A DNA stretch of 11,333 nucleotides from Treponema sp. Lineage in GTDB: Bacteria > Spirochaetota > Spirochaetia > Treponematales > Breznakiellaceae. The notes beneath the pieces are model-generated. The model saw only the letters and a program-made list of their open reading frames with translations, had not been told where the DNA came from and did no database searches. Shown here piece by piece: positions 4,504 to 11,135 of the stretch. A program made the translations under genes and the position numbers. The stretch's first letter is position 1; every line of letters begins with the position of its first letter. The stretch lies in the NCBI GenBank assembly GCA_031271075.1, contig JAISWN010000076.1, positions 1 through 11,333 on the forward strand, written 5' to 3'.

Positions 4504-4731
4504 TTAAGCGCCCATGCGCCCCAGCGTCTTGGATACGCTTTCAAGCATGGCGTACTGTTCTTCGGGAATTTCGTCCCGGACGATATAGGCGTATGCCTTT
4601 ACCGCGGCGGACCGGGCAAATTCATAACAGGCGTCGTTTTCAATAACCTCTTGCAGAAGGCTTATGTTACCGTTGTAGGCGCTGCATAAAATGGCATCGT
4701 AATTCTCCGTTAAACCATAACTCCGCCATTT
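4504..4731 (-). pseudogene. Truncated DUF1186-family gene remnant
   Basis: The minus strand carries 75 codons open from just below an in-frame TAA (4732-4734) to a TAA at 4504-4506. The translation contains LTENYDAILCSAYNGN, LLQEVIEND, FARSAAVKAYAYIVRDEIP. This matches the central signature of DUF1186 proteins as I remember it (LTEDL-ILASV-GD-LK-IIE-EYVRSAALEAL-LV-G-I). No ATG, GTG or TTG occurs in frame until near the end, and the N-terminal part of the family and its C-terminal tail are both missing. I therefore read it as a gene fragment rather than a small gene. It runs convergently to the HD-GYP gene, and its stop lies 16 nt from that gene's stop. The upstream side is replaced by hairpin-rich sequence, consistent with disruption by insertion or deletion. 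Confidence 0.68.
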
Positions 4732-4750
4732 TTAGGCTGCTTACGCACAA

Positions 4751-4900
4751 GTTCCACGGGGTGGAAACATAAACCACGATTTATGGGTCCCTGCGAACCT
4801 TTGGTTCGTCGAATCGAAGGTTCGGCGAAGTTTGCAAGGTAAAATCGCCTCATGGGCGGCGCCTAACCGGCGTTTTTTAGAGATTTTAAGCGCGAAGCGC
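4751..4900. repeat. Cluster of closely packed inverted repeats
   Basis: About 150 nt hold four or more short perfect inverted repeats. TTCCAC/GTGGAA lies at 4752-4757/4761-4766 with a GGG loop. CATAAA/TTTATG lies at 4768-4773/4780-4785. CGAACC/GGTTCG lies at 4794-4799/4803-4808 with a TTT loop. It competes with CGAACCTT/AAGGTTCG at 4794-4801/4817-4824. GCGC/GCGC lies at 4890-4893/4897-4900 with a GAA loop. GCGAAC (4793) could also pair with GTTTGC (4830) as an outer stem with one G-T pair. The block starts immediately next to the truncated DUF1186 fragment and contains no plausible ORF. This is the look of a dispersed structured element or a small RNA; I cannot tell which without other copies. 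Confidence 0.5.
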
Positions 4901-4920
4901 AGCAAACTCCCGGCCGGCGC

Positions 4921-4949
4921 TTGTGGAGGAATGCCCCGGACTTTAGTAT
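4921..4949 (+). promoter_or_regulatory. Weak sigma70-like promoter candidate
   Basis: TTGTGG at 4921-4926 and TAGTAT at 4944-4949 are separated by 17 nt, the standard spacing. Each box keeps only part of the consensus (TTG of the -35; four of six in the -10). They lie upstream of the two small ORFs at 4971 and 5042. This is a candidate only. Confidence 0.2.
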
Positions 4950-4970
4950 ATTAAAGGTGATGTAATACCT

Positions 4971-5300: not shown

Positions 5301-8300
5301 ATGATATGTAAACCCTTTATCCCAGCCCTTTTGCTCTTTCTGCTTCCCCTGGCGGCGGGGGCGCAGACCACATATACCTGGGTTGGTGTGACTGGGGACT
5401 GGCATGATCCTAATAACTGGGAAGACGGGACCCATCAGCCACCGGCCGGCGATTTTCCCGGAAATACCGGCATTGACGATGAGGTGATCATTTCTGCTTC
5501 ACACAACCCGTCGCAGTATCCTGTTTTGACTGCAAAGCTAAATCAGCCTGTTGGTTCTCTTGCTATCCAATCTCCGGGAATCCTGACTCTTGGTTCCAGT
5601 GTTACTTTAACCGTTAGCGGTACTGTTTTGGTTAATGGCACCCTTGATTTGGGTGACGGGACGCTTGCTTCCGGGGAGCTCACGAGCGGGGGAACTGTTT
5701 CTTCAAGCGGGGGCAGCATAAGCAGCGTTGGGAACTTCAGCCAGGCCGGGGGCAGTATTATAGGCAGTATTACTATTGATGCCGGCGGGGATGTAACCCA
5801 AAAGGGCGGCATTGTAAGCGGTAGTATTACGATTTCCGCCGGCGGCTCAGTGGGCATCGATCTGGGGCAGTCTAATGCCTTGACATCCGCGGATCTGACG
5901 GCGCATAACGGTAGTATAGCGTTTAACAACGCATCCGGGGGAGGGCTTTCGCTTACGGCGAGCGCCGCCGCCGCCGGGGGGGCTGTAAATGTTACGGAAA
6001 GCGGGAATCTCACCATAGGGGCGGGGGGGATTAAGGCAGGAGGGGGAATTACCCTTGCCGCGAGCGGCGATCTTGTCGTTACTGACGGGGTAAGCTCAAC
6101 GGGGGGCAAGGTGGAATTTACCGGGGCCGGGATTACCCTGGGGGCCGGTGTAAGCGGGGCCGGGGATATTAGGTTTAACAATCCGGTTACTCTTTCCGCG
6201 GACCTTACGGTAAGTTCCGGCGGCGGGAATGTAACATTTACCAGCACTGTTGACGGGGCTCATGATTTGACGATAAACCAGGCCGATAATGTAACTTTTG
6301 GCGGAAACGCGGGGAGTAGCGCGTCTCTTGGCGATCTTTCCATAACCGCCGCCGATTTTGATATTCTATCGCCGGCAGCGGAGTTGAAGGCTGCAAATAT
6401 TTCCCTTACCGGAACAGGGGATCTGACTATTGGGAACGTGCCTGGTGATGAAATAAGCGCCGTGGAATTGTCAAAGCTTATTGCCGCTTCAAGGCTCCAA
6501 ATTGAGGCGGATTCCTCCCATGCGCTTGCCGTTGAAGTTACTATCACTGCTTCCGTGCCGGAACTGACACTGGCCGCCGGCAAGGAGATAAATCTGGGCT
6601 TTGGTATAACAAACGGCGGCGGGAAAATAACCCTGGACGGCGCGGTAAGCTTGGGCGCTGATGTGACCCTGGATACATCCGCCGGAGCCGGAGATATTGA
6701 GTTTACCGGCCCCCTTAAGGGAAATAAAAATCTGGCCTTGAAAGCCGGAACCGGCGGCATAAACTTTGCCGGAGCGGTTGGCGGAACAAGCCCGGCCGAT
6801 GCCATCGGCGGCGGAACCGGGGCGGCGATAAGCATAGAAAGCGCCTACAATACCGGAAAGGTGAATTTTGCCGGTACTTTGATGACGAATAGTGTTATTA
6901 CCATCGGAACGGAAGTGGAATTCGGCGGCAGTGTTACTATAGGCGGGAACGGCGGTCCTCAAAGCCACATCAAGGGCCCGGCGACAATACGCGGTGCGGC
7001 CCTAAGCTCCGGGAATACATTGGTCTTCGGGGATTCTCCAACGGATCTCACGGACGCGGTAACCCTGGGCAGCACCGGCCCGGTAACGGTAGAGGTAACC
7101 GGACCCGGCGGGGATTTGGAATTCTGGGGAGCCCTGGGAGGAACCCAGGGTTTTACCGTCCGGGCGGCCGGGACGCTGACTTTTCACGATGATGTGGCGG
7201 CCGGCGCCCTGACAGTAGAAGCGGGCGGCCTGATTCTGGATGGCACGGCCGATCTTTCAACAAAATCGAACGGCAATATAACAATAATTGCGGATGCTAT
7301 TACGAATAATTCTAACAGCATCAACGCGGGAACAGGGGCAGTCCGGTTTAGCCCCTTAACCGTAACTAAAACGATTGCCTACGGCCCCTCTTCCGGCGGA
7401 ACCGTTTTGGGGATCTCTATAGATGTTTGGTATTCATCATCCTGGAGCGATATTACTGCCGGTTTGTATCTCATCGGCAGGGATACGCATCAGGGAAATA
7501 TTTATCTCGACAATGTGGGTACGACACCAATAGAACTGACGGCTGACAACGGGGCGGGAACGGGGGCATCAGGAACTATCACCGTTATTGGAACTTACAA
7601 GTCTCTGGACAAGCCTCTCCAGCTCAAGCCGGGAAGCGGCGGCTTAGTGCTTCATGACGCGGTTACTATAGATCTGGGAGACGCGGAATTTGTCTGTAAC
7701 GCAAATGCCGCCCTTGAGGGGAACGGGGATTCTTCGGTAAGCGCCAGGGGGGGGATTACTATCGGAAGCGTTGTTGAAGGGGCAGCTTCCGGCGCCAACG
7801 GCATTACCCTTGACGCCGGGACGGGCGGTAGCGTTACCTTAAACGGGAATATGGGGGATCCGGTAGTCAGGCTGGGAGCGGTAAACGTTACCGGATCGGC
7901 GGTAGGTTTGAAGGGTGTATATTCCGGGGCAGCGGTAACGGTAAGTAACAGCGGGGTTCTTACACTGAACGCCGAGGTAGAAGGAGACGGCGGGTTTACC
8001 CAGATCGGGGGCGGGGTAACCCTTGCCGATGATGCCGCGCTGAGTACAGTAGCAGGCGGCATCGCCCTTGCGGGATCGGTAAGCGGCCTGGGGAAGAATC
8101 TTACCCTTACTGCGGGGACGGGGAGTATCACCCTGGACGGAGCCCTGGGGGGCAGCGGCGCCGGACTGGGGGAAGTGAGTATAAGCGGCGGCGGGACAAG
8201 CCTGAAAGGAAACATCTATACTAACAATAAGGATATTACGGTTACCGGGAGTCTGACCTTAGCCTCCGGAGCCGGGGGGGTAATTCTGAACACCGGCACA

Positions 8301-11135
8301 GGCATTGGCGGTATCACCCTTGGGGGGCCGGTGAGCGGGGCCGGTGAGCCTCCTCTTACCCTTACTGTGGGGATGGGGGATATCGATCTGGCCGGAGACC
8401 TGGGGAGTACCGGCGTGAGGCTGGGGGAAGTGAGTATAAGCGGCGGCGGGACAAGCCTGAAAGGAAACATCTATACTAACAATAAGGATATTACGGTTGC
8501 CGGGAGTCTGGTTTTAGCCTCCGGAGCCGGGGGGGTAACTCTGGACACCGGCACAGGCATAGGCGGTATCACCCTTGGGGGGCCGGTGAGCGGGGCGGGG
8601 GAGGATCTTACCCTTGAGGCCGGAACAGGGGGCATCACCCTGAACGGAGACCTGGGGGACAATACCGGCAGACTTGGGACAGCGGACATACGGGGCGGCG
8701 CCGTTACCCTGGGGGCGGATGTAAGCACGGAGGGAGATATTACATTTGCCACCGCGCCTGATGGTGTTATTTTGGCAGGAAATTCCACAGTAAGTTCCGC
8801 CGGCGGAAATGTCTGGTTTAACAGTAATGTAAAGATCCCGCAAGGCTTCGCCATGACGGCAGACTGCCCCGCGGGCAAGACTGTTTCTATTGCGGGGAAT
8901 GTGGAGCTTTACGGCAGGCTGGATGCCGGTCCCTATCAAAACAGCGATGTTACCATTACTGTCGGGGGCAACTGGAAACAGACAGATGTCTCGGGAAACG
9001 GCGTTTTTAACCCTCACAGCGGAACGGTTGCATTTACCGGCACCGACGTGGAAATTGACGGCGTTACTACCACCTGGTATAACCTTGGTTTCACCAATCC
9101 CGCCGGCGCGACGATCAAATTCCGCAATTATCCCTATCCCGCTTACACGACCGCCCCTTCCGGGCATCGCATAGGCGGTGTTTTCAGTATAGTAAACGGG
9201 GCGGCCGGCAGACTGACCCGCCTTGATTCTTCGCAGACTTTCCCGCCAGGCGAATTATCGCGGAATGATCTTTATGATTATCTTAGCGCCAACCGCGCCG
9301 ATAGATTCTGGAATCTCTTTTACGATCCCGGTAAGAACACTGTTTTTGATGCCCTAAAAGATACGGAAATAGAATGGTGCTGGCTGCGGCCCACGATTTC
9401 CAAAGACATGAAAATACCCCGCATCGGTGATTGGATATCCTCTTATGTGATTAGTTCCCTCAACAACGTTGGCTGGTCAGCCCCCTACCTTGTCTACAGT
9501 TTTACTGAGGACTGGGATTACAACGGCAGAATCGACCATATCCGGGTTCAGGCCGGGGCGCCTATGAACCGGGACATTGCCGATTTTCGCGCCAATGTGG
9601 CCGGTTATAATGTTACGGGCTACGAACTCCATCCCGGTACTGAGCCTTTTTCCCGGTATTTGTTTTATATCAAACTTGAGGAAAAGGATTTCCCCGATAC
9701 GGGTGAAAGACCCCTGGTGCTGGATATTACCGGAGTTAAAGACATCTCCGGCAGGCCCTTTAACCTGCTGGATTCGGCCAAGACGCCGATTGATACCGCC
9801 CCGCCCCAGGTTGTTTATTCCCTGGCCCTGCCCGGCGGGAACGAGCTGTTTATCCGAATGAGCGAACCAGTGGAATTTGCCGCCGGTTTTGAGGCGGCCC
9901 TGTTGATCAACGGGACCGGGGGAGCCTCCGTTGTTCCGGTTACAAGCCTATCAGGCAAATATTCCGAGTTTAAAATTACAGCCCCCTCCCCGTTGACGGC
10001 GGAGGATATCGCCGCGGAGAAGAACATAGAATTCGCGGCCTCTTCCCCGGGGTATTTTTATGATCCTCCTGTTTCGTTTATCTATCCCCCCCGCATAGGA
10101 TCGAGCCAGTTTCCGGGCTGTTACCTTATTTGGCCGAAGGACAGAAAATATGAATACGGCCGAAGCGGGGGCTATGAAGACATAGCGCCGCCCTGGACGG
10201 GAGCTCCGGAGACAAAGATTACCCGAAACTACAACATGAACAACGATACAAGCTACGACTATGTCTACCGCCTTTCGGATCTGCTCCTTGCCCCGCCGCA
10301 GGCAAGCGCCGGAGATCCCTTCTTCGCCCTGCCTGTGTTTGCCCACGATCTAACCGGCGCGGCGAACACGGATCCCCGGACCAGGATCTTTGAATTCGAC
10401 GGTTCCGGGGAGCTTATGGATATGGATGTAACCGTCCAGGCAAAGCTGAGCGACGCCGCCTGGGCGGCCGGCATCAGGGGGCTTGAACTCCGCTATAGCA
10501 CGGATAAAAGGATACCGGAAGAATTCCGCTCCAAGGAGGCGTTTCACGGCACGGAAGGACTCTGGCTTCCCGACGGAAACAGTTCCGTTGATAAGACCGC
10601 CCTGGTTCCCCGCCCCTATAAGGCGGGAAGTTCCGTGGGCGTTCCCGCGCCGGGTAACAGGCTTTACAATTTTACTATTCCCGGCTCAAACCTGCTAAGC
10701 TACACAAATGTTGAATTTTATCTCACCGCCAAAAAAGGCGGTTCCAGGGATCTGATTATCGCCCGGCTGGATGCCAAAGACGGCGCTTCCCTTCCCTGGT
10801 ACAGGCGGATAAAGCCCTTCTCCTTCAGGCTGAGGGAAATGGTTTCTCAGCGCGGCGGCGCTACTATTCTTAACAACGTTATTAACCCGGATCGGGGGGA
10901 CAGGGCGGTTCTCCACTACCTCCTTGCCCGGGGCGGCCGGGTAACCATCCAGGTTTTTACCCTGGACGGAAACCTGGTTAAGGTTCTGGAACGATCCTCC
11001 AAGGGCGCGGGGGAATACGCCGTCTCCTGGGACGGCAGGAACAAGGGCGGCCGCGTGGTGGCCCGGGGGCTCTACTTTATCCGGATCGTCGGGCCGGATA
11101 TAGACGAAATACGCAAGGTAATGGTGGTAAAATAG
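5301..11135 (+). CDS. Giant secreted beta-helix surface protein, FlgD-like C-terminus
   Basis: This 1944-residue protein is predicted to be exported and surface-associated. Residues 1-21 form a signal peptide with an AGA cleavage site before Q22; C3 is not in a lipobox. Residues 25-40 hold a YTWVG...DWHDPNNW motif typical of large adhesin-like proteins. Residues about 70-1175 are Gly/Thr/Ser/Val-rich repeats (LTLTAGTG-ITL-G, GGITLGGPVSGAG) of filamentous-haemagglutinin-like beta-helix type, interrupted near 690-770 by a less repetitive, Trp/Tyr-containing stretch. Residues about 1224-1275 contain a FNPHSGTVAFTGT...TTWYNLGF module. Residues 1404-1412 (DWDYNGRID) resemble a calcium-binding DxDxNGxxD loop, and an Ig-like DTAPP...SEPV region begins near 1498. 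Residues about 1846-1944 are a FlgD-type Ig domain (GEYAVSWDGRNKGG, then GLYFIRI, ending KVMVVK). No two-partner-secretion domain or autotransporter barrel is seen. An in-frame TAG at 5286 fixes the ATG at 5301. Adhesion or envelope structure is inference. Confidence 0.93.
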   Translation: MICKPFIPALLLFLLPLAAGAQTTYTWVGVTGDWHDPNNWEDGTHQPPAGDFPGNTGIDDEVIISASHNPSQYPVLTAKLNQPVGSLAIQSPGILTLGSSVTLTVSGTVLVNGTLDLGDGTLASGELTSGGTVSSSGGSISSVGNFSQAGGSIIGSITIDAGGDVTQKGGIVSGSITISAGGSVGIDLGQSNALTSADLTAHNGSIAFNNASGGGLSLTASAAAAGGAVNVTESGNLTIGAGGIKAGGGITLAASGDLVVTDGVSSTGGKVEFTGAGITLGAGVSGAGDIRFNNPVTLSADLTVSSGGGNVTFTSTVDGAHDLTINQADNVTFGGNAGSSASLGDLSITAADFDILSPAAELKAANISLTGTGDLTIGNVPGDEISAVELSKLIAASRLQIEADSSHALAVEVTITASVPELTLAAGKEINLGFGITNGGGKITLDGAVSLGADVTLDTSAGAGDIEFTGPLKGNKNLALKAGTGGINFAGAVGGTSPADAIGGGTGAAISIESAYNTGKVNFAGTLMTNSVITIGTEVEFGGSVTIGGNGGPQSHIKGPATIRGAALSSGNTLVFGDSPTDLTDAVTLGSTGPVTVEVTGPGGDLEFWGALGGTQGFTVRAAGTLTFHDDVAAGALTVEAGGLILDGTADLSTKSNGNITIIADAITNNSNSINAGTGAVRFSPLTVTKTIAYGPSSGGTVLGISIDVWYSSSWSDITAGLYLIGRDTHQGNIYLDNVGTTPIELTADNGAGTGASGTITVIGTYKSLDKPLQLKPGSGGLVLHDAVTIDLGDAEFVCNANAALEGNGDSSVSARGGITIGSVVEGAASGANGITLDAGTGGSVTLNGNMGDPVVRLGAVNVTGSAVGLKGVYSGAAVTVSNSGVLTLNAEVEGDGGFTQIGGGVTLADDAALSTVAGGIALAGSVSGLGKNLTLTAGTGSITLDGALGGSGAGLGEVSISGGGTSLKGNIYTNNKDITVTGSLTLASGAGGVILNTGTGIGGITLGGPVSGAGEPPLTLTVGMGDIDLAGDLGSTGVRLGEVSISGGGTSLKGNIYTNNKDITVAGSLVLASGAGGVTLDTGTGIGGITLGGPVSGAGEDLTLEAGTGGITLNGDLGDNTGRLGTADIRGGAVTLGADVSTEGDITFATAPDGVILAGNSTVSSAGGNVWFNSNVKIPQGFAMTADCPAGKTVSIAGNVELYGRLDAGPYQNSDVTITVGGNWKQTDVSGNGVFNPHSGTVAFTGTDVEIDGVTTTWYNLGFTNPAGATIKFRNYPYPAYTTAPSGHRIGGVFSIVNGAAGRLTRLDSSQTFPPGELSRNDLYDYLSANRADRFWNLFYDPGKNTVFDALKDTEIEWCWLRPTISKDMKIPRIGDWISSYVISSLNNVGWSAPYLVYSFTEDWDYNGRIDHIRVQAGAPMNRDIADFRANVAGYNVTGYELHPGTEPFSRYLFYIKLEEKDFPDTGERPLVLDITGVKDISGRPFNLLDSAKTPIDTAPPQVVYSLALPGGNELFIRMSEPVEFAAGFEAALLINGTGGASVVPVTSLSGKYSEFKITAPSPLTAEDIAAEKNIEFAASSPGYFYDPPVSFIYPPRIGSSQFPGCYLIWPKDRKYEYGRSGGYEDIAPPWTGAPETKITRNYNMNNDTSYDYVYRLSDLLLAPPQASAGDPFFALPVFAHDLTGAANTDPRTRIFEFDGSGELMDMDVTVQAKLSDAAWAAGIRGLELRYSTDKRIPEEFRSKEAFHGTEGLWLPDGNSSVDKTALVPRPYKAGSSVGVPAPGNRLYNFTIPGSNLLSYTNVEFYLTAKKGGSRDLIIARLDAKDGASLPWYRRIKPFSFRLREMVSQRGGATILNNVINPDRGDRAVLHYLLARGGRVTIQVFTLDGNLVKVLERSSKGAGEYAVSWDGRNKGGRVVARGLYFIRIVGPDIDEIRKVMVVK
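7747..7754 (+). repeat. G8 homopolymer tract within the surface-protein gene
   Basis: Eight consecutive G residues encode Arg-Gly-Gly at about residues 815-818. Further G7 tracts lie at 5976-5982 (directly after four GCC units), 6023-6029, 8274-8280 and 8529-8535. Gain or loss of one base would shift the frame and truncate the 1944-residue product. Gly codons in GC-rich DNA also create G runs by chance, so a switching role is only a possibility. Confidence 0.6.
8166..8672 (+). repeat. In-frame tandem duplication, units of 255 and 252 bp
   Basis: Two adjacent units inside the beta-helix gene, 8166-8420 (85 codons, residues 956-1040) and 8421-8672 (84 codons, residues 1041-1124), each begin LGEVSISGGGTSLKG. 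The first 78 nt are identical between units. Over the first 176 nt I count 7 mismatches (8244; three around 8254-8256; and one each in the later VILNTGTGIGG-type stretch). After that the units diverge (GAGEPP versus GAGED). More diverged copies with the same layout flank them on both sides. This indicates recent duplication within an older repeat array. Confidence 0.9.

Follow-up and report, generated by a model that had tools for sequence, protein, structure and literature searches.

By which route could a giant surface-type protein of Treponema sp., for which the original prediction saw no recognisable secretion partner, leave the cell? Its gene lies in the window, that is, the whole stretch of 11,333 nucleotides that was analyzed, which is the entire contig C181 of the source genome (G000; 62.9% complete, 394 contigs). 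Using Pfam, we found a PilZ protein, TsaE, a TsaD/TsaB-type protein and a PAS/HD protein upstream of the giant gene. Between the HD protein and the giant, at positions 4700-4960, the window is non-coding and contains short inverted GAACCTT-type repeats. The parts of the giant gene are listed in Table 1.

Table 1. Parts of the giant gene, with positions in the window and the basis of each assignment.
Feature	Residues	Position	Strand	Basis
Whole ORF, giant protein, ATG start	1944 aa	5301..11135	+	ORF call; identical match G000:C181:5301-11132 in single-sequence search
Signal peptide MICKPFIPALLLFLLPLAAGA	1-21	5301..5363	+	read by eye
Mature N-terminal motif TWVGVTGDWHDPNNW	26-40	5376..5420	+	W.G...W...NW pattern in relatives
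Gly/Thr-rich, charge-poor body	about 60-1300	5478..9200	+	composition, periodicity; no Pfam match
Tandem repeat, 2.4 copies of 255 bp (85 aa), 81% alike		8054..8669	+	TRF
C-terminal half common to the family	1391-1944	9471..11132	+	single-sequence search, alignment
Calcium-loop-like DWDYNGRIDHIRV, putative	1404-1416	9510..9548	+	family consensus
C-terminal domain (CTD), proposed export signal; last 20 residues are the most conserved block	1851-1944	10851..11132	+	alignment, profile searches
FlgD_ig PF13860 match inside the CTD	1879-1929	10935..11087	+	Pfam

The N-terminus reads by eye as a signal peptide, in line with the original prediction, and the predicted cleavage point, also placed by eye, falls between MICKPFIPALLLFLLPLAAGA and the Q that follows. 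The W.G...W...NW pattern of the mature N-terminus is present in 8 of the 17 relatives counted as having the start of the ORF. Residues 60-1300 contain 19% Gly, 11% Thr and 1% Arg. They had been taken for about 1100 residues of haemagglutinin-type beta-helix repeats. We could not confirm this: no Pfam repeat family matched residues 60-1300, and a crude test for hydrophobic periodicity gave no peak exceeding those of shuffled sequences. TRF found the 255-bp repeat and a 13-bp doublet in the ORF and nothing more. The body is a possible candidate for a beta-helix. The Ig-like regions proposed upstream of the CTD found no Pfam support either. The calcium-loop-like motif is present, and its loop DWDYNGRID (residues 1404-1412) belongs to a conserved family stretch with the consensus YS.TED....G.ID..R. 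The sole Pfam family matched at E ≤ 1 in the full protein was FlgD_ig (PF13860; E 7.4e-8, 32.7 bits against a gathering cut-off of 27), which bears out the expected C-terminal FlgD-type Ig domain.

The size and the Gly/Thr-rich composition of the giant are like those of adhesins exported by two-partner secretion or as autotransporters. It could be such a cargo (TPS/T5b or autotransporter) with domains too diverged for Pfam, but we see very little chance of this. At E ≤ 1, the Pfam check found no TPS, haemagglutinin or barrel family in the giant, as the original reading had it, and the C-terminus is FlgD_ig. Among 58 genomes of the same order as the source, G000 included, none had the partner family ShlB (PF03865) above the cut-off; two had sub-cut-off matches (G006 and G021), and G000 had none. 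No partner gene adjoins the giant gene within the window, and of the 28 loci around the giant gene, no more than 7 share any one neighbour family.

A single-sequence search of this one order found relatives of the giant in 28 of the 57 other genomes, which makes 29 of 58 with G000. In one of them, G025, the match is a 40-residue piece only. Complete ORFs or frames range from 1053 to about 7462 aa, i.e., about sevenfold. The 7462-aa frame (L053/L054; G038:C11, about 574-597 kb) is nearly four times as long as the window protein. An alignment was made of 28 proteins over their last 640 residues. The final 94 residues of the window protein are 49-78% identical to those of the 27 relatives. When the two relatives of the same genus were left out, identity was 20-39% in the block 1651-1850, 9-30% in the block 1531-1650, and 14-41% in the block 1391-1530, where the 187-aa fragment of G011 was left out as well. 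The best-conserved block of the whole alignment is its last 20 columns, and 18 columns are invariant in the 28-row alignment A1. Thus, in this protein of variable length, conservation is by far highest at the C-terminus, which had been described as conserved from the window alone. Such a steep rise in conservation at the extreme C-terminus, together with a body varying about sevenfold in length, is the pattern expected of a signal recognised by a conserved machine.

Which kind of domain is this? FlgD models matched all 28 CTDs and scored above TIGR04183, the type A sorting domain of the type IX secretion system (T9SS), which matched 26 of the 28 at E ≤ 0.01. The cut-off of TIGR04183 is 23 bits; the excised CTD of the window protein scored 23.7 and the full-length giant 18.4. 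When the CTD profile was compared with solved structures, FlgD came closest, and the structure matches listed contained no T9SS CTD. The CTD therefore looks like a T9SS-type CTD, and sequence alone does not separate it from other FlgD-like Ig domains.

The similarity to FlgD_ig would also suit a periplasmic or flagellar giant, whose FlgD-like domain binds the hook or periplasmic filaments. Treponemes are expected to carry flagella. The giant is absent from 29 of the 58 relatives, which should be flagellated too, its length varies about sevenfold, and its presence coincides with that of an outer-membrane translocon family (see below); a flagellar role is thus very improbable. The domain is like the Ig domain of the hook cap in its Pfam match and its best PDB relatives, but here it closes a giant protein with a signal peptide and is not part of a hook-cap protein. 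It shares with the type A CTD of the T9SS a length of about 94 residues, the position at the extreme C-terminus, a Lys near the end and the strongest conservation in the last 20 residues; a conserved lysine of the last strand and a 22-residue targeting end of HBP35 are described for T9SS CTDs (PMC11285876). It differs from that type in being closer in sequence to FlgD_ig and in being very well conserved, whereas T9SS CTDs are described as having very low identity (PMC11285876).

We then considered SprA, the outer-membrane translocon of the T9SS. With the SprA/Sov model TIGR04189, none of the 58 genomes was above the 200-bit cut-off, and weak matches (E 7.9e-5 in G026 and 2.0e-4 in G020) fell in an orthologous large protein. 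With the G020 protein as a query, 35 of the 58 genomes were positive, including the source genome, where the match is a protein of about 1759 aa on contig C152 (E 2.4e-231). Among 296 Spirochaetota genomes, 83 matched TIGR04189 at E ≤ 0.01, 81 of them in other classes than the source's. The frames there are mostly about 1800-2060 aa long and match in several collinear stretches (best E 4.7e-30). None of the 296 genomes reached the 200-bit cut-off. These proteins, below the cut-off in both sets, therefore form a divergent branch and are not equivalogs.

The homology to SprA was traced through a chain of profiles. Alignment A6 consists of 20 deep-branching spirochaete SprA proteins, of which 17 match TIGR04189 at E ≤ 1e-3 (best E 1.8e-52). 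With its profile, the solved SprA 6h3i was reached at E 6e-41, the match being divided into SprA 144-885 and 990-1525. Alignment A3, 21 SprA-like proteins of the source's class, matches A6 in hhalign over 718 columns (Prob 99.9, E 4.2e-36, 17% identity), and its profile directly matches 25 genomes of other classes. TIGR04189 itself is matched by just one of the 21 class members (E 0.002), and SprA in the PDB was reached neither by the class-family profile A2 at E ≤ 10 nor by the single G020 sequence. In a Foldseek search with a model of the SprA-like protein, itself weak, the top three hits were the SprA chains 8gl6, 8gl8 and 6h3i. Thus, judging from the chain A3 to A6 to TIGR04189 and 6h3i, the source genome and many relatives probably encode a large SprA homologue. 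The lack of a recognisable partner, noted in the original prediction, holds for the window alone and not for the genome, where the SprA-like gene lies on another contig.

Some SprA-like genes have an unusual structure. In three genomes of family f3 (L098:4275-10556 in G056; L109:5592-11423 in G050 and L110:6436-12381 in G047, both on the minus strand), the gene is in frame with an upstream DinB (DNA polymerase IV), whose end runs directly into a signal-peptide-like stretch. SprA-like frames near 1900-2100 aa in other f3 genomes may carry the same DinB fusion. The SprA-like gene of L064 (G026:C186) includes a masked stretch of N, and in the available sequence its parts lie in different frames.

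We scored the presence of the giant and of the SprA-like gene in the 58 genomes with one threshold for both (E ≤ 1e-3). Both were found in 28 genomes and neither in 22; one genome had only the giant, and seven had only the SprA-like gene (G003, G012, G018, G021, G022, G026 and G035). Fisher's test gave p 1.0e-8, a value that ignores shared ancestry. Two genomes with the SprA-like gene and no CTD, G022 and G026, are 97-99% complete, and they are the only two of that kind among the 33 genomes that are at least 90% complete and at most 5% contaminated; in this set 20 have both, none has the giant only and 11 have neither. The genome with the giant only is G025. There the last 40 residues lie in a 139-aa frame (G025:C106:29478-29597, L149), no further family match was found in the 3.1 kb of sequence analysed there, and there is no SprA-like gene, which gives the piece the look of a remnant.

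In the 296-genome draw, where the thresholds were E ≤ 1e-10 for the CTD and E ≤ 1e-5 for the SprA-like gene, the agreement was exact: the 46 genomes of the source's class with the CTD are the same 46 that have the SprA-like gene. At least 20 genomes of the order are negative for both. Positives and negatives occur inside one genus, with 17 positives and at least 10 negatives in g40 and one positive and two negatives in g48. In the single-contig genomes, the giant and the SprA-like gene lie at 2.86 and 1.68 Mb (G032), 2.43 and 1.89 Mb (G033), 2.44 and 1.81 Mb (G036), and 0.41 and 2.42 Mb (G039). As the two genes are far apart, linkage is not the cause of their co-occurrence. Outside the source's class, 22 genomes are CTD-positive; an SprA match was found in 19 of them, and the remaining three (G088, G091 and G108) are 76-78% complete. 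Of the 85 SprA-positive genomes of these other classes, 19 have the CTD by profile A1 and 66 do not; the cargo of these 66 may carry other CTDs. Thus, the CTD behaves as an export or anchoring signal would, since its presence coincides with that of an SprA-type outer-membrane translocon. This part of the original prediction, which also drew on the conserved C-terminus, stands. Its assumption that the signal is specific to a spirochaete surface-protein family does not, as the CTD belongs to a wider FlgD_ig/T9SS-CTD-like kind.

The number of CTD copies per genome was determined with profile A1. One strong copy was found in 28 of the 58 genomes (E ≤ 2.6e-45), which are also those that supplied the rows of the profile. 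The 40-residue piece of G025 matched at E 1.5e-11, and further matches in the 58 genomes were weak (E 8e-8 or worse). Among the 296 genomes, 68 matched at E ≤ 1e-10. The 46 of the source's class have exactly one copy each, at the end of frames of 1186-7462 aa; the other 22, all of other classes, have 1-8 copies each (8 in G081, 6 each in G069 and G091, and 4 in G059). The original prediction had made an export role depend on other exported proteins of the genome sharing the domain; in the source's class there is one strong copy per genome, which on that criterion would speak against export, but there are 1-8 copies in other classes. Therefore, in the source's class the tail is not a sorting tag shared by many proteins, and in view of the copies in other classes the single copy looks like a one-cargo state.

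Other proteins with FlgD-like parts were observed. The one second FlgD_ig match in the source genome is below the cut-off and internal to a 440-aa ORF (L002:1138-2460, G000:C91), where it is followed by a barrel-like part; this ORF overlaps a 269-aa ORF in another frame that is PEGA-like by eye. L150 (G019:C115) and similar frames of about 1400 aa consist of tandem FSPNGDG-type Ig repeats and FlgD-like modules. Proteins with FSPNGDG-type Ig repeats occur also in genomes without an SprA-like gene.

The CTD might still be an ordinary FlgD-type Ig cap or anchor. In that case export would take another route, and the co-occurrence would reflect a shared envelope lifestyle and not recognition. This is the main rival explanation, and it agrees with FlgD being the closest family and the closest solved structure and with the pore occurring without the tail in 7 of 58 genomes. 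We consider it unlikely, because it does not fit the perfect match between two unlinked loci in 46 of 46 class genomes, both states being found inside one genus, the maximum of conservation at the extreme C-terminus, or the multi-copy C-terminal domains of deep-branching spirochaetes, where 19 of 22 such genomes have an SprA match.

A CTD-dependent passage through an SprA-type translocon encoded elsewhere in the genome, after export by Sec, is in our opinion the likely route of the giant, which would be a surface fibre or adhesin. The protein would cross the inner membrane by means of its Sec-type signal peptide, and the divergent SprA-type translocon encoded on contig 152 would then move it across the outer membrane. 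The translocon would recognise the 94-residue C-terminal Ig-like domain as a ticket, as homology, conservation and co-occurrence suggest. The product would be a surface fibre whose body is free to vary in length, and in the source's class the SprA-type route would serve one giant cargo per genome. After passage the CTD may be removed or may be kept as an anchor. We infer the recognition, the export and its energy source, the surface location and the adhesive role.

Are other parts of the T9SS present? PorV (PF19572) was above the cut-off in none of the 58 genomes, with one weak match (E 0.005, G044) and no positive control. GldM/PorM (TIGR03517) was above the cut-off in none of the 296 genomes; five matched at E 0.003-0.009, and there was no positive among 14 control genomes. 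Since there is no positive control for either model and SprA itself stays below its cut-off, this non-detection is no proof of absence. As a precedent for an SprA set without the rest of the T9SS, PorV, SprA and Plug and no other T9SS protein are reported for Melioribacter and Ignavibacterium (PMC11705866).

In G022 and G032, the gene immediately downstream of the SprA-like gene encodes a barrel-like protein of about 450 aa, and such a protein also follows SprA directly in G094 and G102, which belong to another class. It is followed, where the available sequence reaches, by a FecR-domain protein of about 720-750 aa with a related C-terminal part. This pair beside SprA genes is conserved between classes (L114:10994-14602, L198:10305-13749), and its FecR part weakly matches the Leptospira Lsa33/LipL45 models. 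The barrel profile A7 matched 84 of the 296 genomes at E ≤ 1e-6. In the source's class, 16 of the 46 positive genomes match it, with two copies each, and so do two class genomes outside the 46 (G291, E 2.5e-26; G324, E 1.3e-8). By coordinates, 9 of these 16 genomes have the match downstream of the SprA-like gene at a distance of at most 0.9 kb. G000, G224 and all 28 positives of family f3 gave no A7 match. The pair may be an accessory part and not a required one.

Like the SprA translocon of the T9SS, the SprA-like proteins are linked to SprA by the profile chain, they end in the source's class in a C-terminal Phe, as outer-membrane barrels do, and they are found together with CTD proteins, a pairing also described for the CTD and T9SS genes of Bacteroidetes (PMC11285876). 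In contrast, the aligned single-gene members are 1139-1779 aa long (the three longer ones are fused to DinB), while the solved chain has 2403 aa; there is one strong CTD protein per genome instead of tens; and no member is above the family cut-off. Another counterpart is SprB, a giant protein with a type B CTD and a gliding motor. In gliding Flavobacterium, SprB is a repetitive surface adhesin exported by the SprA system (PMC11205867). The giant would resemble it as a large repetitive SprA-exported adhesin, but neither a type B CTD nor a gliding motor was seen in its case.

T9SS genes are reported from Bacteroidota and allied FCB phyla and stated to be absent elsewhere (PMC11285876). Likewise, a 2016 survey is reported to have found the T9SS in Bacteroidetes alone among the clades, in 60 of the 97 genomes of that group (PMC4793230). 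In the partial set of literature that we checked, we found no report of SprA in spirochaetes. The route proposed here works like the T9SS and has the same kind of pore, yet we do not file it as a T9SS, since the motor and PorV were not detected. A wider reading, which we put forward tentatively and with more doubt than the export route itself, is that spirochaetes have an SprA-based secretion system of their own, older and simpler than the T9SS of Bacteroidetes. In the source's class it would lack the known GldM motor and PorV and consist of a dedicated pore and one giant CTD fibre, with the barrel/FecR-barrel pair in part of the class, and this unit would have been lost and retained as a whole on many occasions. 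The system of deep-branching spirochaetes would still serve several CTD cargoes.

Our data thus point to a secretion route that has received little notice in spirochaetes. Should SprA homologues and CTD cargoes prove widespread in Spirochaetota, the T9SS would have an older origin, or be more mobile, than has been assumed. Removal of a single gene would then be a direct test of how spirochaetes place large proteins on their surface. With the GldM motor apparently lacking, the route would also be a test case for what powers SprA.
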